Positions 49,030-58,464 of a stretch of DNA of 64,000 nt are shown here, piece after piece. The notes beneath the pieces were generated by a model. The model had not been told where the DNA came from, did not search any database, and saw nothing but the letters and a program-made list of their open reading frames with translations. How positions within the stretch are numbered: the stretch's first letter is position 1; every line of letters begins with the position of its first letter. Both the position numbers and the translations under genes were made by a program. Source of the stretch: Desulfomonile tiedjei (GTDB lineage: Bacteria > Desulfobacterota > Desulfomonilia > Desulfomonilales > Desulfomonilaceae); assembly GCA_016218715.1 (NCBI GenBank), contig JACRDG010000032.1, forward strand, positions 62,001-126,000, read 5' to 3'.

Positions 49030-50865
49030 TTGAATGTTTTATTGTTTGTCCTGGTGGGGATAGCCCTCTTTCCTCAAGCGGATTCGTTTGCCCAGGATTC
49101 CCCCCGAGGAGAAAGCCATTTCATCGGCGTCAAACAGACCGACATGGTGGCGAAAAGCTCTGCGTCCCCTGACGGAGAGCCCGATGCGGTCTTCTCTCTC
49201 AGTCTGAAGGCGCGTGCTTCCGCGCCGGAAATAGCGGCCATTGAAATCCGAACCACCGCGGGACCGCGGGGGGCGTGGAGTTCCCGGAAGATCGCGGGCG
49301 CGGACTTCCTGGGTGCCGCCAAGGCCAAGGAGCCGTCTTTCCTCCTCAACCCCAAGGCTGAAGCGCTGAATCTGAAGGCTGACGAGGAACTCAGTCTCCT
49401 GCTGTTTGTTACCGACGACGGGAAGTTTTCGGACAAGAATCGCAAGTTCCAGGCCAAGATCGTCAACGCGGACGGCACGTCTTTCGTGTTGCCTGTTCTC
49501 GCGGAAGAGCCCGGGAAAGAGGAGTCCCCCCCGGGTGCCACAGGGGTCTTCCCGGTTCGTATGTCCGCGGTGCTCAAAGGGATATCAAACTACGATGCCG
49601 TGAGCCCCGGTAAGACCATAAAGGGGGACGACAAACCGGACGGGCTCTTTGTCCTGAGCGTCGAGGCGAGAGACAAGGAGATCACCGGTATCGAGATACG
49701 GACGACCGAAGGAGAGCCAGCCGCGTGGGATACGATTCCGAGCAGCAAGAACTGGGGGATCGGGGTGGCTGCGGTGTCGGACCCGATCAAGCTGCTCAAC
49801 AAGAGGGACGGAACGGTCGCCATCCCGCTGCACGGTCGCGTGGATCTCAACCTCTATGTGGCTGACAACGGCAGCATCGCGAAGGGGACGGTCAATTACC
49901 GCATCGCAGTAACGTTCCGCGACGGCGAGATCGCGTGGTGCCCGGTCAAGAAGGCCTCCGAGGAGACGGCGGAAGCGCCGCAGGAGCAGCCGTTACGGCC
50001 GTCCAAGGTCAATTTTCTCGGGACCTGGCTCGGGTACGTGTCCACCGACTCGGTCGGCCTCTATCCGGGACTGAAGCCTGATGGCAAGGCAGATGCGGTC
50101 TTCGGCCTGGACATCGAGGTTTCTCCAAAGAATTATATCAGTGGCATCGAGATCAACAGCATGGCCGGTGGAACGACCAGATGGGGTACCACAGGCACTA
50201 CCCCCAAAGTGTGGGGGATAGGGGTGGCGTATCAGACCGCGCCGACTGCACTGCTCAACCGGGTCGACGGTTCCGTGCGCATCCCGATCGAGGGTAGGGG
50301 TCAGTTCTACCTTTATGTCGCGGATCCGGGAGATCTGAGACGAATCCACCAGGGGCTGAGAATCATCGTGCATCTTGCGGATGGCTCTTCGTACCAGCAA
50401 TTGCTGCGTCAGCCTTCGGGCACGACCCCCTCGGTGATCCCCGGGGTGGACGAATCGCCTAAATCCAAGGGGGCCATGACCTGCGAGTTCCGCGGGTTCC
50501 TCTACGATTTTGTCAACACCTCCACACGGCCCGGCAAGGACGGCTACCTCGATGGAACGTTCATCCTGAAGCTCGAGGTGGAGGACAAGAAGATGGTCAA
50601 GGTTGAAGTCAGCGGCGGCGACGGGATCGTCCGCTGGTCCAGCGAACCGAAACCACCCATGATGTTCCTCGGAGTCGCGCTCTACCCGCAAATCACCAAA
50701 TTGATAAACGAGCAACCGGGAAAGATGAATGTTCCTTTGTCGGGGAAGCGCACAGTCTTTCTGTACGCCGCGGATAATGGGATGCTCTCCGATCCGAAAG
50801 CCGTTCTCCGTGTGAACGTGACTTTTTCGGACAAGAGCCAGCTGTCCACCGTGGTCGTCAAGTGA
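49030..50865 (+). CDS. Secreted protein with four tandem beta-rich repeats, unknown function
   Basis: 611 residues, TTG start at 49030 and a signal-peptide-like N-terminus (NVLLFVLVGIALFPQADSFA). Four repeats of about 130 residues follow (roughly 28-160, 170-300, 325-455, 480-605). Each has a D-G-x-D-A/G-x-F-x-L segment (DGEPDAVFSL, DDKPDGLFVL, DGKADAVFGL, GYLDGTFIL), an IxxIEIR strand, a W-containing loop with GIGVA or similar, LLN, and a LYVADNG-type strand. I do not recognise the domain. It may be a carbohydrate- or surface-binding module. Neighbours give no clue. Confidence 0.8.
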   Translation: MNVLLFVLVGIALFPQADSFAQDSPRGESHFIGVKQTDMVAKSSASPDGEPDAVFSLSLKARASAPEIAAIEIRTTAGPRGAWSSRKIAGADFLGAAKAKEPSFLLNPKAEALNLKADEELSLLLFVTDDGKFSDKNRKFQAKIVNADGTSFVLPVLAEEPGKEESPPGATGVFPVRMSAVLKGISNYDAVSPGKTIKGDDKPDGLFVLSVEARDKEITGIEIRTTEGEPAAWDTIPSSKNWGIGVAAVSDPIKLLNKRDGTVAIPLHGRVDLNLYVADNGSIAKGTVNYRIAVTFRDGEIAWCPVKKASEETAEAPQEQPLRPSKVNFLGTWLGYVSTDSVGLYPGLKPDGKADAVFGLDIEVSPKNYISGIEINSMAGGTTRWGTTGTTPKVWGIGVAYQTAPTALLNRVDGSVRIPIEGRGQFYLYVADPGDLRRIHQGLRIIVHLADGSSYQQLLRQPSGTTPSVIPGVDESPKSKGAMTCEFRGFLYDFVNTSTRPGKDGYLDGTFILKLEVEDKKMVKVEVSGGDGIVRWSSEPKPPMMFLGVALYPQITKLINEQPGKMNVPLSGKRTVFLYAADNGMLSDPKAVLRVNVTFSDKSQLSTVVVK

Positions 50866-52046: not shown

Positions 52047-52724
52047 TTGATCGTCGCCAAGCAGAAATCGTTCAGCGAAGTCCAAGAGATGGTGCGAGGC
52101 TTTTCACGCGTACTCGTGGCAGGTTGCGGCACCTGCGTGGCCGTGTGTCTGGCGGGTGGAGCGAAGGAAGCGGAAATTCTCGCCACTGAACTCTCGCTCG
52201 CAGCTACCGCGCAGAAACGCGACTTCAGCGCGCGGGCCGCGACCGTGGAACGCCAGTGCGATCGCGAGTTCCTCCAGCTCTTTGCCGACCAGGTGGAACA
52301 GGCCGACGCGGTGATTTCGCTCGCCTGTGGCGCGGGCATTCAATTTATGGCTCAGGTTTACCCGGACACTCCCGTGTTTCCTGGAGTGGACACGAGCTTT
52401 ATCGGCGTCGCGGAAGGCGTTGGCGTCTGGACCGAGCGCTGCAAGTCGTGCAATCAGTGCTACCTCGGGATCACCGGCGGGATCTGTCCGGTTACTATGT
52501 GCGCCAAGAGCCTACTCAACGGTCCCTGTGGCGGACCGAAGAACGGCAAGTGTGAAACCGATCCGGACAGAGATTGCGCCTGGGTGCAGATTATCGACAG
52601 GTTGGGTCGACAATCGCGGCTCGATATCCTGACGCGGGTACTCCCGCCCAGAAAGAACGATCTGGATACCCAGCCCTGGAAGATCGTCCGGCAGGATTAT
52701 CAGAAGCGGTTCTCTTTCGACTGA
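52047..52724 (+). CDS. metV: MetV-type methylenetetrahydrofolate reductase C-terminal-domain protein
   Basis: 225 residues from TTG 52047, chosen because GGAGG (52037-52041) lies at the right distance. Cysteine motifs are AGCGTCVAVC near residue 25 and CKSCNQCYLGITGGICPVT, LLNGPCGGPKNGKCE, which define the MTHFR-C zinc/Fe-S domain (MetV). In acetogens MetV pairs with MetF and with Hdr subunits. No metF is present here, and hdrA follows after 36 bp. It likely links methylene-THF reduction to the Hdr complex. Confidence 0.85.
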   Translation: MIVAKQKSFSEVQEMVRGFSRVLVAGCGTCVAVCLAGGAKEAEILATELSLAATAQKRDFSARAATVERQCDREFLQLFADQVEQADAVISLACGAGIQFMAQVYPDTPVFPGVDTSFIGVAEGVGVWTERCKSCNQCYLGITGGICPVTMCAKSLLNGPCGGPKNGKCETDPDRDCAWVQIIDRLGRQSRLDILTRVLPPRKNDLDTQPWKIVRQDYQKRFSFD

Positions 52725-52760
52725 CACTTTTGGCTGTATATAGAGAAAACCCTGGATCGT

Positions 52761-54014
52761 GTGAGCGAGCGAATGGAAACTGATGCTCTCATAGTAGGCG
52801 CGGGCGTCGCTGGGTTGTGGAGCGCGTGGGAACTCGCACTACATGGGGCCACCGCCACTATCGTGGAAGCCGCGCCGTACCCGGGAGGCCATGTAGCCCG
52901 GTTCTGCTGCAAAGCTACCGGCCGGTGCCAGAAGTGTGGAGCTTGCCTTCTGGAGGATGTGCTCCGTAAGGTCCGTGGGTCGGATCGCATCACCACCCTT
53001 TTGGGGAGCACGGTTCTCGAGGCTTCCGACACGGATCGCGGGTTCGACCTGACCCTGTTGTGCCGGCCCCCGCGCATCTTCCCGGACCGTTGTGACGGGT
53101 GCGGAGCATGCACGGACGTTTGTCCGGTCCCCGGTGCCCTGGTGCAGTCACCCTTCGACCGGCGGATGGTCCTCGATCAGCAGAGGTGCCTGCGCTTTCA
53201 GGGAGGAGAATGCCGTGCTTGCGAGGAGGCATGTACCCGCGGCGCGGTCAACCTGGACATGCCGGCACAGAAGATCCCGGTGAGCGCTTCCGCTGTAGTG
53301 CTGGCAGCGGGTTTTCGCCCGTTTGACCCCCTGGAGAAGCCGCGGCTCGGGTACGGGCGGGTCCCCGGGGTGGTGACCGCTGCCGAACTTGATGAACTGA
53401 TCAGAACCGACAAGTGGTTTCCTGGGGCCGGAGCGTCCAGGACCCGCTCGGTCGCATTCATTCAATGCGTGGGGAGCCGCGACGCGAAAATCGGACGGAA
53501 CTATTGCTCGCGAGTCTGTTGCGGGTACGCGCTCCGGTTGGCGAGACTACTCCGCAGCCGTTATCCCGACATCGAGCCGACGATGTTCTACATGGACATT
53601 CAATCCTTCGAGCGGGATTTTGAGGCCCGTCTGGGCGAGGCAGCACGCGAGGCCAGGCTCATCCGGTCTATGCCCGCTGAGATCCGGACCGGCAGCGATG
53701 GTCGGCCGGAAGTCGTGTACGAAGGCATGGACGAAAAACGGGTGGCAGAGCCGTATGACATGGTGGTGCTGAGCGTCGGCATCAGTCCGGGTCAATCGCT
53801 GGGGAACCTCTGTTCGACGTTCGGGATCGACCTCAACAGCGATGGCTTCCTCGGCCCTGACGGCGAGGCGGTGACCACCAGCCAGGACGGGCTCTTCGTC
53901 GCAGGGGCGGTCCAGGCCCCGCGCTCCATTGAAGATTCGGTTTCTCACGCAATCAAGGCCGCGGCGGCGGCCGATAGATACCTCAGGCGAATGGCAAACA
54001 GGGAGAAGCAGTGA
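52761..54014 (+). CDS. hdrA: HdrA-like/QmoA-like flavin and iron-sulfur subunit
   Basis: 417 residues. The FAD motif is ALIVGAGVAGLWSAWELA. Residues 50-66 carry CCKATGRCQKCGACLLED. Two ferredoxin-type clusters follow (CDGCGACTDVCPV and CRACEEACTRG), then NYCSRVCCGYALR, the HdrA-typical cysteines. Overall size is like QmoA. It probably binds FAD and carries the bifurcation or electron-entry site of the complex. ATG 52773 may be the real start; the stop overlaps the next start by 4 bp. Confidence 0.85.
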   Translation: MSERMETDALIVGAGVAGLWSAWELALHGATATIVEAAPYPGGHVARFCCKATGRCQKCGACLLEDVLRKVRGSDRITTLLGSTVLEASDTDRGFDLTLLCRPPRIFPDRCDGCGACTDVCPVPGALVQSPFDRRMVLDQQRCLRFQGGECRACEEACTRGAVNLDMPAQKIPVSASAVVLAAGFRPFDPLEKPRLGYGRVPGVVTAAELDELIRTDKWFPGAGASRTRSVAFIQCVGSRDAKIGRNYCSRVCCGYALRLARLLRSRYPDIEPTMFYMDIQSFERDFEARLGEAAREARLIRSMPAEIRTGSDGRPEVVYEGMDEKRVAEPYDMVVLSVGISPGQSLGNLCSTFGIDLNSDGFLGPDGEAVTTSQDGLFVAGAVQAPRSIEDSVSHAIKAAAAADRYLRRMANREKQ

Positions 54015-55594
54015 AAACGCCGGTCGAACAACCAATTCCTCTCGGCGGAGCAGCGCCTCCTGAGGAGCGGAACCTGAGGAAGGTCCTGGTTCTGGGCGGC
54101 GATCGGGTCGGTCTGGAGCTGGCAGAACGTCTCGCTGCCGAAGGTTTTGAAGTAGTGCTCTTGGGGCAGGCCCAAAACGGGAGCGGGACCGGAGGCGTGA
54201 CGTTCGTGCCTCACGGCCGGCTTTCCGAGGTGCGAGGCTTCCTCGGCGGCTTCGACGTGACGCTCAGCGCCCAAAACGGCCGTATTCGCGAGCGGATCGG
54301 GCACATAATAGCCGCGGCTCCGGCTGAAGTGGCGCCCAAGTTCTCGGCATACGGTCTGTCGAGGACCGATGGTGCCCTTGCGTTGTCGGAATTCCCGGAA
54401 TGGATCGCTCGGTCCGATCCGTCGACTTCTCGGGACGGAAAGTGGTTCCACGCGGCATTCCTCTGCGGGCTCGAAGCAGGGTCACACCCCGCGGTCTTCT
54501 CCCGGGTGCTCGATGCGGTCGAGCAGCTCGGTCAACTCCAGAATGTTCAGACCTACGTCTTCACCAGGCATCTCAAGGTGGCAGGTGCCGACCTGGAGCG
54601 GCGTTACCGGGAGAGCAGAGAGCGCGGCACGCTCTATTTCAAGTTCGACGAACAAGGATGCGCGTTCGAGCAGACTCCGGAAGGGGTCAAAATGGTCTTT
54701 TCAGACCCGCTGCTGGGCCGGGAAATGGAACTCAGCCCCAATCTCCTGGTGGTGGACGAGGATTTGTTGCCGCCCGCTTCGCTGGAACCGCTCCTGCGCG
54801 CAATTCCGGCTTCGCCGGCTGGAAGTCCGTTCCTGCAGCCGGAATCGACTCGCTTCTGCGGGGTGGAAACAGCCAAGGCGGGTATCTACGCAGTGGGACC
54901 ATCCCGGGGCGTGTTTGCTCCGGACCTGATCGTGGGAGACGTGGAAGCGGTTGTCGCGGCTCTGAGGAAGCCTCTTTCAGAGCCCGCGCCCTGGACCGGG
55001 CTCAGCGCTCCGGAAGTAGATCCCGAAAAGTGCACCATGTGCCTGACGTGCGTCCGCATTTGCCCGCATGGAGCGATGGGGTTTCGAGACCGCGCGCTGG
55101 CCGATCCGTTTTCCTGCGTGCGGTGCGGTATCTGCGCTGCCGAGTGCCCGATGAAGGCCATCGTGCTCCTCGGGGGAGTCGAGGGAAACGAGACCAAGGC
55201 TCAGGTCGATCGCGACCTTGCCCGCGTCTCGGCACCCGGGAAGATCGTGGCATTTCTCTGTTCCCGCTCTGCCACAGATGCGCTGGAATCTGCCGGGATC
55301 GCAAGCGACCACCTGAGCGTGGTGAAGGTCCCGTGCGCGGGGACCGTGAGCACGTCCCATATACTGACGGCATTGCGTGAGGGCGCGCGAGGAGTGCTCG
55401 TGGCAGGGTGCTTCAAAGGCAACTGCGCGTCGGTCTACGGCACCGCGCTCGCTTCGGAGCGAGTTGCAGAGATAACTCGCGTGCTCGGAAGCGCAGGGAT
55501 TGACCCCGCAAGAGTCCAGTACGCGCCGGTCGCGAGCAATACGCCGGGAACGCTGGCCAGAGCCGTGCGAGAGTTGGAAGAATCGCTGGTATGA
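54011..55594 (+). CDS. HdrA/QmoB-like subunit with ferredoxin and MvhD domains
   Basis: 527 residues. The N-terminal part is a second flavoprotein-like Rossmann domain (VLVLGGDRVGLELAERLA) with a degenerate GxGxxG. Residues about 335-385 hold two [4Fe-4S] motifs (CTMCLTCVRICPHG and CVRCGICAAECPM). The C-terminal 130 residues are an MvhD/FrhD-like domain (IVAFLCSRSATDALE, VVKVPCAGTVSTSHIL, GVLVAGCFKGNCAS). The arrangement resembles QmoB of sulfate reducers. It overlaps hdrA by 4 bp and should accept electrons from hydrogenase, formate dehydrogenase or NADH modules. Confidence 0.85.
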   Translation: MKTPVEQPIPLGGAAPPEERNLRKVLVLGGDRVGLELAERLAAEGFEVVLLGQAQNGSGTGGVTFVPHGRLSEVRGFLGGFDVTLSAQNGRIRERIGHIIAAAPAEVAPKFSAYGLSRTDGALALSEFPEWIARSDPSTSRDGKWFHAAFLCGLEAGSHPAVFSRVLDAVEQLGQLQNVQTYVFTRHLKVAGADLERRYRESRERGTLYFKFDEQGCAFEQTPEGVKMVFSDPLLGREMELSPNLLVVDEDLLPPASLEPLLRAIPASPAGSPFLQPESTRFCGVETAKAGIYAVGPSRGVFAPDLIVGDVEAVVAALRKPLSEPAPWTGLSAPEVDPEKCTMCLTCVRICPHGAMGFRDRALADPFSCVRCGICAAECPMKAIVLLGGVEGNETKAQVDRDLARVSAPGKIVAFLCSRSATDALESAGIASDHLSVVKVPCAGTVSTSHILTALREGARGVLVAGCFKGNCASVYGTALASERVAEITRVLGSAGIDPARVQYAPVASNTPGTLARAVRELEESLV

Positions 55595-55637
55595 GTCGAT
55601 TCTCGACACCGGTTTGGAGGAATTGAGGAAGGCAGTT

Positions 55638-56105
55638 ATGAGCCGCATCAACTTGAACGATCTGGACCCTTCTTTCAAACACCGCGTCGCCGAACAGCCG
55701 GGCGGTCAGGGGATAAAGGCCTGTTTCGCGTGCAAGGCCTGCACAGCAGCCTGTCCTATCACCGCAGTGGACGCCCGGTACGATCCGCGCAAGATCATAC
55801 GGATGGCGCTTCTGGGAATGACGGAAGAGATCCTGCACAGCGACTTCATCTGGCTCTGTTCCTCTTGTTACGGATGCCAGGAGGTGTGCCCGCAAAACGT
55901 GAGCTTCACCGAGGTGATGTTCGCGATCAAAAACCTCGCCGCGGCAGAGGCGTGCGTCCCGCCTGGGCTCACCGGCCAGAGGCTGCTCTTGAAGGCGCAT
56001 GGCCGCCTGTACGAAATCAGCGACTTCGAGAACGAGAAGCGCGAGAAGATGGGCCTGCCGCGTATTAAAGAACACCCGGAGGATTACGACGCGCTGCTGG
56101 GGTGA
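55638..56105 (+). CDS. hdrC: HdrC-like iron-sulfur subunit
   Basis: 155 residues. Two [4Fe-4S] motifs occur in CFACKACTAACPIT and CSSCYGCQEVCPQN, as in HdrC, and the C-terminal helices (ENEKREKMGLPRIKE) are typical. The ATG at 55638 has GAGGAAGG before it; the longer open frame to 55500 is rejected as it runs into the preceding gene. It carries electrons from the flavin subunit to HdrB. Confidence 0.9.
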   Translation: MSRINLNDLDPSFKHRVAEQPGGQGIKACFACKACTAACPITAVDARYDPRKIIRMALLGMTEEILHSDFIWLCSSCYGCQEVCPQNVSFTEVMFAIKNLAAAEACVPPGLTGQRLLLKAHGRLYEISDFENEKREKMGLPRIKEHPEDYDALLG

Positions 56106-56145
56106 TCCCGGCGGTCCGACGGGGCAGGTTTGAACGAGGATTTGT

Positions 56146-57021
56146 ATGGAAGCGCTCTTATATCTCGGATGCACGGTACCGGTGAGAAACCTGAACTACG
56201 AGGTTTCTGCCCGGCTCACCGCGGAACGTCTCGGCATCACCTTTCGCGATCATGAGGATTTCGGGTGTTGCGGGTACCCGCTCAAGTCGCTCGATGTCAG
56301 GGATACGCTGGCGATTGCAGCACGAAACTTGGCCATCGCGGAGCGTGAAGGCCTCGAGATCTGCGCGCTGTGCAACGCGTGCGCGGGGACACTCGCTGAG
56401 GCCGCTCATGTGTTGGATCATCACCCCGAGCTGAAGGAAGAGGTCAATCTCCGGCTTGCACCACTCGGCCTGAAATACGAAGGACCGGTTCGAGTGCGGC
56501 ACTACATGCGCGTGCTTTGGGAAGAAGTTGGAGTTGAGGCGATCCAGCGCGCGGTTACCCGCCCTCTGAACGGCGTGCTCGTGGCGCCGCATTACGGATG
56601 CCACTATCTGAAGCCCTCCGAGCTTACGAAGGGGTTTGATTCCCCGGACGTCCCGAAAACCCTTTCCGGGCTGATTGCGGCGACGGGCGCGCAGGTGGCC
56701 GACTATTCTTCGCTCAAGGAATGCTGTGGCGGCGGGGTGCTGGGCGTGTCGGAAGACGTTGCCAATGCCCTGGCTGCGATCAAGCTCGCCGATGTTGCCG
56801 GTACCGGGGCACATGCGCTGGTACTGGTCTGCCCGTTCTGCAACGTGATGTACGAGGGTCAGCAGAAAAAGATTGCCAAAGCCATCGGCCTTGACCGCAA
56901 GGTGCCGGTGGTTTATTATCCCCAAGTTTTGGGTCTTGCTCTCGGGTTGTCTTCTGAAGAGCTTGGATTCAAGCTCAACCGCGTCAAACCTTCGGAGCTT
57001 CTGAACATCGTGGAAGGCTGA
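56146..57021 (+). CDS. hdrB: HdrB-like CCG-domain catalytic subunit
   Basis: 291 residues. Two CCG domains are seen: GCTVPVRN with DFGCCGYPL and CALCNAC; and PHYGCHYL with KECCGGG and CPFCNVM. In methanogen HdrB these bind two non-cubane [4Fe-4S] clusters that reduce the CoM-S-S-CoB disulfide. In a bacterium the acceptor is another disulfide or, with MetV, methylene-THF. The gene completes the metV-hdrA-QmoB-like-hdrC-hdrB row. Confidence 0.93.
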   Translation: MEALLYLGCTVPVRNLNYEVSARLTAERLGITFRDHEDFGCCGYPLKSLDVRDTLAIAARNLAIAEREGLEICALCNACAGTLAEAAHVLDHHPELKEEVNLRLAPLGLKYEGPVRVRHYMRVLWEEVGVEAIQRAVTRPLNGVLVAPHYGCHYLKPSELTKGFDSPDVPKTLSGLIAATGAQVADYSSLKECCGGGVLGVSEDVANALAAIKLADVAGTGAHALVLVCPFCNVMYEGQQKKIAKAIGLDRKVPVVYYPQVLGLALGLSSEELGFKLNRVKPSELLNIVEG

Positions 57022-57118
57022 TCGCTTCCCCCCGCCACTGCATGCGTCCGATTTGCGAATAGGAGGGGGGGCCAGGTTTTCCCTTCAACTGCCGATTCTC
57101 CGTCGAAAGGAGGCTGTC

Positions 57119-57550
57119 ATGGAACTTGAGGGCTATTCGTTCCCCGATGACGTGAAATACGACAAGAACCACTTCTGGGCAAAGATCGAGGGTGATCTGG
57201 TGGTCACCGGCGCGACCGAGTTCATCTCCAAGCAGGCCGGCGAAATCACCTTCGTGGATCTCCCCGAAGAGGGCGACGACGTCACTCAAGGCAAACCCTT
57301 CGGCAGTATCGAATCCGGGAAATGGGTGGGAAGAATCTATGCGGCGGTCTCCGGCGAAGTGACCGAAGTGAACGGGGAGCTGGAAGACGAGCCGGAAAAG
57401 ATCAACGAGGACCCCTATACCGTCGGGTGGATCTGCAAGATCCGGCCTTCAAACCTCGCGGCCGAATTGGGCAATCTCATGGACCCGGATGAAGCCTTCA
57501 AGCAATTCATCGGCGAAGAGATTAAAAGGATCGAAGAACAAAAAGGGTGA
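57119..57550 (+). CDS. GcvH-like lipoyl-carrier protein
   Basis: 143 residues. The fold matches glycine cleavage H protein: DVKYDKNHFWAKIEGDLVVTG, GEITFVDLPEEGDD and the lipoylation loop SIESGKWVGRIYAAVSGEV, where the conserved lysine is present in a changed context (ESGKWV rather than ESVKA). C-terminal LMDPDEAFKQFI resembles the H-protein end. AAGGAGG lies just before ATG 57119. No gcvT or gcvP is adjacent; position after hdrB suggests a lipoate-based electron or C1 carrier working with the Hdr complex. Confidence 0.85.
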   Translation: MELEGYSFPDDVKYDKNHFWAKIEGDLVVTGATEFISKQAGEITFVDLPEEGDDVTQGKPFGSIESGKWVGRIYAAVSGEVTEVNGELEDEPEKINEDPYTVGWICKIRPSNLAAELGNLMDPDEAFKQFIGEEIKRIEEQKG

Positions 57551-57901: not shown

Positions 57902-58372
57902 ATGGAGAGCCTGAATTTGCTCGATATTACCATACGATACTTCAACGTCATCGTATTCGTTCTATGCGTGCTCTTTGGAATGATTTCTCTGTTCGCCTCC
58001 TGGATTGCCTGGCGTGAGATACACCGCAAGCAGAATATCATTCGCAGCGTGGTCGCCGCGTACAACATCGCGGAAGATACTCTCGAAAAAGGGCGTACCC
58101 CGAGGGGAGATCACGAATTCGATCCTTCCATCGTGCTGACGGTCTTCAACAGCCTGCAAGAAATCCTCAACGCGATCTACGGCGAGGTCACCGGCAAGCC
58201 GATACCCGCACGGGAGGATCGTTCCCACGGGTCGCGGCAACTCCCGGGGATCAAGAGTGTAAGCAGGGTGTGGAAAAGGTCCCAACCTGAGGACCGGCTG
58301 AACATCGATACCGGAGTGCCGACCTTCATAGCAGAGGACAAAGGGGAGCACCAGAGCATCTCCCATCCCTGA
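57902..58372 (+). CDS. Single-pass membrane protein of unknown function
   Basis: 156 residues from ATG 57902, preceded by GGGAAGGGAG. Residues 12-38 form one membrane helix (NVIVFVLCVLFGMISLFASW), then a positively charged soluble part with a helix IVLTVFNSLQEILNAIYGE around residue 77-96. No signal cleavage or cysteines. I do not recognise it. The upstream extension to 57815 is not supported. It precedes pdxS but is separated from it by a repeat. Confidence 0.6.
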   Translation: MESLNLLDITIRYFNVIVFVLCVLFGMISLFASWIAWREIHRKQNIIRSVVAAYNIAEDTLEKGRTPRGDHEFDPSIVLTVFNSLQEILNAIYGEVTGKPIPAREDRSHGSRQLPGIKSVSRVWKRSQPEDRLNIDTGVPTFIAEDKGEHQSISHP

Positions 58373-58390: not shown

Positions 58391-58464
58391 GCAATCCAAA
58401 GAAGCTATTTGGGGGGAACTTCTTTACACAAAGAAGTTCCCCCCAAATTACTCTTTGAATTGCG
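58391..58464. repeat. Dispersed repeat family A, copy 4 (best copy)
   Basis: A perfect 19-bp stem, ATTTGGGGGGAACTTCTTT at 58407-58425 and its complement at 58430-58448, closes on the loop ACAC. Imperfect outer arms (GCAATCCAAAGAAG at the left and CTCTTTGAATTGC at the right) extend the palindrome to about 73 bp. It separates the membrane protein gene from pdxS. Confidence 0.8.

Follow-up and report, generated by a model that had tools for sequence, protein, structure and literature searches.

Hdr-type and other CCG proteins occur widely among bacteria without CoM or CoB, most of them still lacking an assigned disulfide substrate. To our knowledge, neither CoM nor CoB occurs in bacteria of the kind that hosts the locus described here. 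The nearest described case is sHdr-LbpA of Hyphomicrobium and Thioalkalivibrio, in which LbpA proteins, homologues of GcvH, are tied to Hdr-like proteins (PMC6067878); the combination of Hdr with a lipoyl protein is already known in principle. LbpA occurs in sulfur oxidizers and has two conserved Cys residues, near the N and C termini, and the system has a dedicated sLpl(AB)/LipS1/S2 lipoylation pathway (PMC6067878, PMC10332631). DsrC has been reported as the partner of another bacterial HdrABC, in a reference given in PMC10553843. Beyond the sHdr papers, the open-licence literature searched revealed no sulfate reducer or syntroph in which a GcvH paralogue is tied to HdrB or HdrD. Here we describe an operon of Desulfomonile tiedjei that encodes Hdr subunits together with a GcvH-like protein. 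Our survey of related genomes points to this lipoyl protein as the sulfur-sulfur substrate of the enzyme, in place of the coenzymes that methanogens use.

Organization of the operon

The window, that is, the whole 64,000-nucleotide stretch of DNA analyzed, is part of contig C108 of a genome of 5.55 Mb (99.99% complete). All six genes that the earlier note had listed, from metV to the GcvH-like gene, were present in the proposed order on the + strand, and a further gene and a terminator-like stem lay behind them:

52047-52724, + strand: MetV-like Fe-S protein (DUF5981) without MetF (Pfam PF12225, 1.7e-34)
52761-54014, + strand: short HdrA with FAD domain and 4Fe-4S motifs (alignment to HdrA2 138-561)
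54011-55594, + strand: QmoB-like protein with two 4Fe-4S motifs and a C-terminal FlpD/MvhD domain (FlpD 8e-27; HdrA2 415-768)
55638-56105, + strand: HdrC with two 4Fe-4S motifs (TIGR03290 1.1e-27, under its cut-off)
56146-57021, + strand: HdrB with two CCG motifs (CCG PF02754, two stretches)
57119-57550, + strand: GcvH-like lipoyl protein of the K-W class, predicted lipoyl Lys68 (PF01597 5e-37)
57902-58372, + strand: small protein of membrane type, perhaps encoded by the final gene of the unit (homologues are kept beside the same GcvH in L186 and L188)
58407-58448, no strand: terminator-like stem of 19 pairs, end of the unit (pattern scan)

The ATG start of the GcvH-like gene at 57119 was chosen by alignment. 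The intergenic gaps ranged from -4 to 97 bp, with an overlap of 4 bp between the HdrA and QmoB genes and gaps of 36-97 bp at the remaining junctions. The pattern scan detected no terminator-like site in the interval between the HdrB and GcvH-like genes, the first strong one being the stem at 58407-58448, and the hdrB and gcvH genes overlap in the loci L073 and L294 of relatives. The GcvH-like gene was thus placed in the same apparent transcription unit as hdrB, and this arrangement speaks against the separate transcription that the earlier note had named as a refutation. Upstream of the operon, positions 49030-50865 encode a repetitive, probably exported protein of 611 residues with no Pfam match; in several relatives, a protein of similar size lies between MTAP and the Hdr module.

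The ten Cys residues of both CCG motifs of HdrB aligned with those of the solved methanogen HdrB (5odc_B) and were kept in the family. The GxGxxG and Cys motifs of HdrA were also conserved in a family alignment. The profile of the QmoB-like protein matched HdrA and MvhD chains in the PDB. Where the arrangement recurs in the family, HdrB showed 72-81% identity. Identity to the window proteins was 71-83% for HdrC, HdrB, and GcvH versus 38-59% for HdrA and QmoB.

The GcvH-like protein and glycine cleavage

The GcvH-like protein passed the Pfam and NCBIfam cut-offs for GcvH (PF01597, 126.9 bits; TIGR00527, 121.5 bits), and in an alignment spanning the full length, Lys68 of its ESGKW motif fell on the lipoyl Lys of solved H proteins. 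It belongs to a class, here called K-W, in which Trp directly follows the lipoyl Lys. In a quick tree of 146 columns with an arbitrary root, a branch with SH-aLRT support of 99 split the K-W class from the H proteins of glycine cleavage, including that of E. coli, and the window protein was placed inside a clade (support 98) made up of 14 rows of Hdr-linked family members. It therefore did not group with housekeeping GcvH, the grouping that the earlier note had named as a refutation of its reading.

An ordinary H protein of glycine cleavage that happened to lie beside the Hdr genes would also pass the GcvH cut-offs; however, besides the separate position in the tree, a housekeeping gcvT-H-PA-PB operon is present elsewhere in the window genome, and K-W proteins occur in genomes without glycine decarboxylase. 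GcvP was absent in 11 of 18 family genomes, and the sole GcvH of one of these relatives (G009, 99% complete) is the Hdr-linked one. A K-W GcvH without GcvP was also found in G001, G005, G013, G188, G224, G268, G400, and others, with 98% completeness for G188, G224, G268, and G400. We regard a chance placement as extremely improbable, and the tree position together with the occurrence in genomes without GcvP led us to reject the identity of a housekeeping H protein.

The window genome also encodes, on contig C80 (L040:8592-9485), a GcvH-related protein of 297 residues whose N-terminal part is rich in Cys. A sensor kinase and a response regulator are encoded nearby, and similar long versions of the protein were found in at least 6 family genomes.

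Neighborhood surveys of HdrB and of K-W GcvH

On the Hdr side, 41 bacterial loci with HdrB identities of at least 47% were compared. A K-W class GcvH lay beside HdrCB in 35 of them, in several gene orders (downstream, upstream, or divergent) and across Desulfomonilaceae, Desulfarculaceae, Syntrophaceae-like, and Stahlbacteria genomes; contig ends cut three of the remaining six loci. The arrangement is not due to chance, because it recurs in the family and the HdrC-HdrB-GcvH set recurs in these 35 loci. Counter-examples were G017, in which gcvH lies apart from HdrCB, and L078 and L096, in which HdrB of the same type has no adjoining GcvH. No GcvH of the K-W class was detected beside HdrB in the archaeal loci L099-L106 (HdrB identity 41-45%).

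On the GcvH side, 395 Desulfobacterota genomes were searched with a GcvH profile and no Hdr query; the profile was derived from sequences linked to Hdr or HdrD, and the loci that were counted are phylogenetically related. The result was bimodal: about 83 hits reached E values around 1e-45 or better, housekeeping-like ones came next, and 80 of these loci were retrieved for neighbor analysis. Most of the surveyed loci came from metagenome bins; genes of relatives were called by a simple ORF script and labeled by similarity through BLAST against local references. A CCG protein (HdrB, HdrD, or FAD-oxidase-HdrD) was found within 2.5 kb of 51 of the 54 ES/TxKW proteins examined, and within 300 bp of 42 of them, and gcvP or gcvT was near none of the 54. 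For ten control GcvHs with another residue after the Lys, a CCG neighbor was found in none and gcvP/T in seven. Fisher's test of all 72 K-W proteins against the 10 controls gave P = 9e-7, a value that is only a guide because the loci are related; in addition, linked examples had gone into the profile. As judged from the neighbors of HdrB, those of GcvH, and the absence of glycine cleavage, the lipoyl protein is part of the Hdr module.

A subclass of GcvH with a QSRKW motif (L256, L257, L263, L271, and similar loci) lies beside lipoate-ligase-like and radical SAM genes with no CCG neighbor, and is perhaps a site of lipoate assembly.

Three kinds of CCG enzyme beside K-W GcvH

The CCG enzymes that K-W GcvH adjoins fall into three kinds: soluble HdrCB(A), HdrD paired with a membrane protein of cytochrome type, and FAD-oxidase-HdrD. 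In L299, L302, and L303, gcvH lies between an HdrD and cytochrome b pair and HdrCB. Loci of the HdrD type (L184, L185, L236-L254) often contain a lipoate ligase gene beside the K-W GcvH copy, and glycolate/lactate-oxidase-like FAD proteins as well. The FAD-oxidase-HdrD fusion, a protein of 860 residues, is encoded next to GcvH in relatives, and its orthologue in the window genome was found on contig C79 (56% identity over 860 aa). A second K-W GcvH operon of relatives (L184:4550-16448, L185:5257-15751, L187:6436-9981), with a lipoate ligase nearby, comprises genes for an HdrD-like CCG protein, GcvH, a large membrane cytochrome-like protein, a LarA-like protein, and FAD-oxidase/GlcF, and looks like an operon for lactate or 2-hydroxyacid oxidation.

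MetV and the lack of MetF

The earlier note had viewed the module against the MetFV-type bifurcating methylene-THF reductase and had remarked that MetF was missing locally. The operon indeed contains no metF, and a search of the genome revealed two copies, one on contig C67 and one on C4, each immediately preceded by an mvhD and a metV of its own. In L071-L073 and L304, a different MetF (module-type MetF) is encoded within the operon, and the order in L072 and L073 is MetV-MetF-HdrA-QmoB-HdrC-HdrB-GcvH-FAD-oxidase-HdrD. This MetF was absent from the window genome, and the window MetV showed 48-67% identity with the MetVs of relatives that contain it versus 43% with the other MetV of the genome. 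Two Desulfomonilaceae loci retain MetV-MetF-HdrA-QmoB, and the alignment revealed that their MetFs (L045:4967-5860, L047:3109-3978) carry Arg at the position of the catalytic Glu, which we take to be E28 in E. coli numbering; these Arg-bearing proteins suggest a non-catalytic or repurposed MetF. In genus g4, HdrA-QmoB-HdrC-HdrB-GcvH is found with neither metV nor metF adjoining.

A methylene-THF reductase of the MetFV-HdrABC-MvhD type, with MetF acting in trans from another locus, would agree with the retention of MetV in the window operon, with the two genomic metF genes, and with the occurrence of MetV-MetF within the same operon in L071-L073. However, each of the two genomic MetFs already comes with a separate MetV and MvhD and shares only about 30% identity with the module-type MetF, the latter is without its catalytic Glu in L045 and L047, and the g4 module is without MetV. 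Such a reductase seems highly unlikely, and the same observations do not support MetFV as the frame for this module. Since the catalytic Glu has been lost in two Desulfomonilaceae and MetF has gone in the window, the operon probably serves a function other than methylene-THF reduction. From the loss of this Glu, the absence of the module-type MetF from the window genome and of MetV beside the g4 module, and the higher identity of HdrC, HdrB, and GcvH than of HdrA and QmoB, we infer that the methylene-THF branch was lost stepwise while HdrC-HdrB-GcvH was retained. In other Desulfobacterota (L276, L283, L285), MetV-MetF adjoin gcvT-gcvH-gcvPA-gcvPB, which fits the reductive glycine pathway.

LbpA features and lipoylation genes

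The earlier note had drawn an analogy with sHdr and proposed a phylogenetic comparison with LbpA and true GcvH. The parallel architecture was borne out, and the tree separated the protein from true GcvH; LbpA was compared through its published Cys signature (PMC6067878), which was lacking, as the window protein has only Cys106 and no N-terminal Cys was found in 17 aligned class members. Among the genes examined around the window operon there was neither a lipoate ligase nor LipS1/S2. The genome encodes a standard LipA elsewhere and three LplA/LipB-like enzymes, which were found with PF21948, PF03099 having matched only BirA. We do not file the system as sHdr, because the N-terminal Cys is absent and sHdr occurs in sulfur oxidizers with their own lipoylation genes, although the two may share a working principle.

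Sulfur transfer as in sHdr-LbpA, with the lipoyl group carrying sulfur for oxidation or assimilation, would be in line with the link of the GcvH homologue LbpA to Hdr-like proteins (PMC6067878) and with a Stahlbacteria locus (L088:8250-12225) in which HdrC-HdrB and a K-W class GcvH flank three DsrE/DsrH-like genes, a locus that may form a link to Hdr systems of sulfur transfer. In addition to the missing Cys, the window module has no DsrE, TusA, or rhodanese genes and no second HdrB/HdrC set, and the neighbors at other loci are carbon oxidoreductases, all of which makes this role unlikely.

Proposed function

We propose, with a probability of roughly 0.7, that HdrB has lipoyl-GcvH as its thiol/disulfide partner in a cytoplasmic Hdr-type complex. 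The suggestion of the earlier note that the lipoyl protein may be the disulfide partner of HdrB gains support from the tree, the apparent shared transcription unit, and the counts of CCG neighbors. Because K-W GcvH adjoins three kinds of CCG enzyme, the lipoyl group as substrate of the CCG site would be their simplest common denominator.

A partnership of HdrB with DsrC, as in Desulfovibrio FlxABCD-HdrABC, would leave the lipoyl protein another role in the complex. DsrC was present in 8 of 8 Desulfomonilaceae tested, and its interaction with HdrABC is reported in a work cited in PMC10553843. However, it was missing in 9 of 30 tested genomes with K-W GcvH, including G024, G062, G274, and G388 (95-98% complete), and is therefore not the general partner; we consider this alternative very improbable.

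With lipoyl-GcvH as partner, the complex would act on the dithiol/disulfide lipoyl arm of a GcvH-like protein dedicated to it, and this protein would correspond, in protein-bound form, to CoM-S-S-CoB or to DsrC. Two electrons would move between the lipoyl group and the two noncubane [4Fe-4S] sites of HdrB, HdrC would pass electrons from HdrB to the flavin of HdrA, and QmoB/FlpD with MetV would transfer them onward, probably to or from ferredoxin. We infer the lipoylation, the contact between HdrB and GcvH, and this electron route. The lipoyl group has a potential of about -290 mV; as it is a poor high-potential acceptor, our guess is that the complex would oxidize dihydrolipoyl-GcvH. The lipoyl protein could also shuttle electrons between CCG enzymes, for example from the FAD-oxidase-HdrD encoded on C79. 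Whether K-W GcvH serves anaerobic Desulfobacterota in general as a protein-bound lipoyl redox currency, used by soluble HdrABC, membrane HdrD-cytochrome b, and FAD-oxidase-HdrD in the place of CoM-S-S-CoB, appears to us evenly balanced. For the large number of sulfate reducers and syntrophs concerned, a dedicated lipoyl protein would offer a concrete answer, open to testing, on the disulfide substrate. If true, it would be a further non-classical role of lipoic acid, distinct from its functions in 2-oxoacid dehydrogenases, in glycine cleavage, and in sulfur oxidation.

Comparison with known systems

Like MetFV-HdrABC-MvhD of Moorella and others, the window operon has MetV, HdrA, HdrB, HdrC, and MvhD parts, but it has no MetF, its HdrA is split into HdrA and QmoB/FlpD, and a lipoyl protein is added. 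FlxABCD-HdrABC with DsrC in Desulfovibrio resembles our proposal in that a protein-borne thiol would be the partner of HdrB, whereas DsrC carries Cys thiols in place of a lipoyl group on GcvH and the window operon is without Flx genes. In sHdr-LbpA, Hdr-like proteins are likewise encoded with a GcvH-like lipoyl protein; as far as tested, the two Cys residues and the dedicated lipoylation genes set it apart from the window locus. Methanogen HdrABC-MvhAGD and HdrA2B2C2 share with the window both noncubane cluster motifs in HdrB and the HdrC and HdrA-type parts; unlike these systems, the window operon encodes a lipoyl protein.
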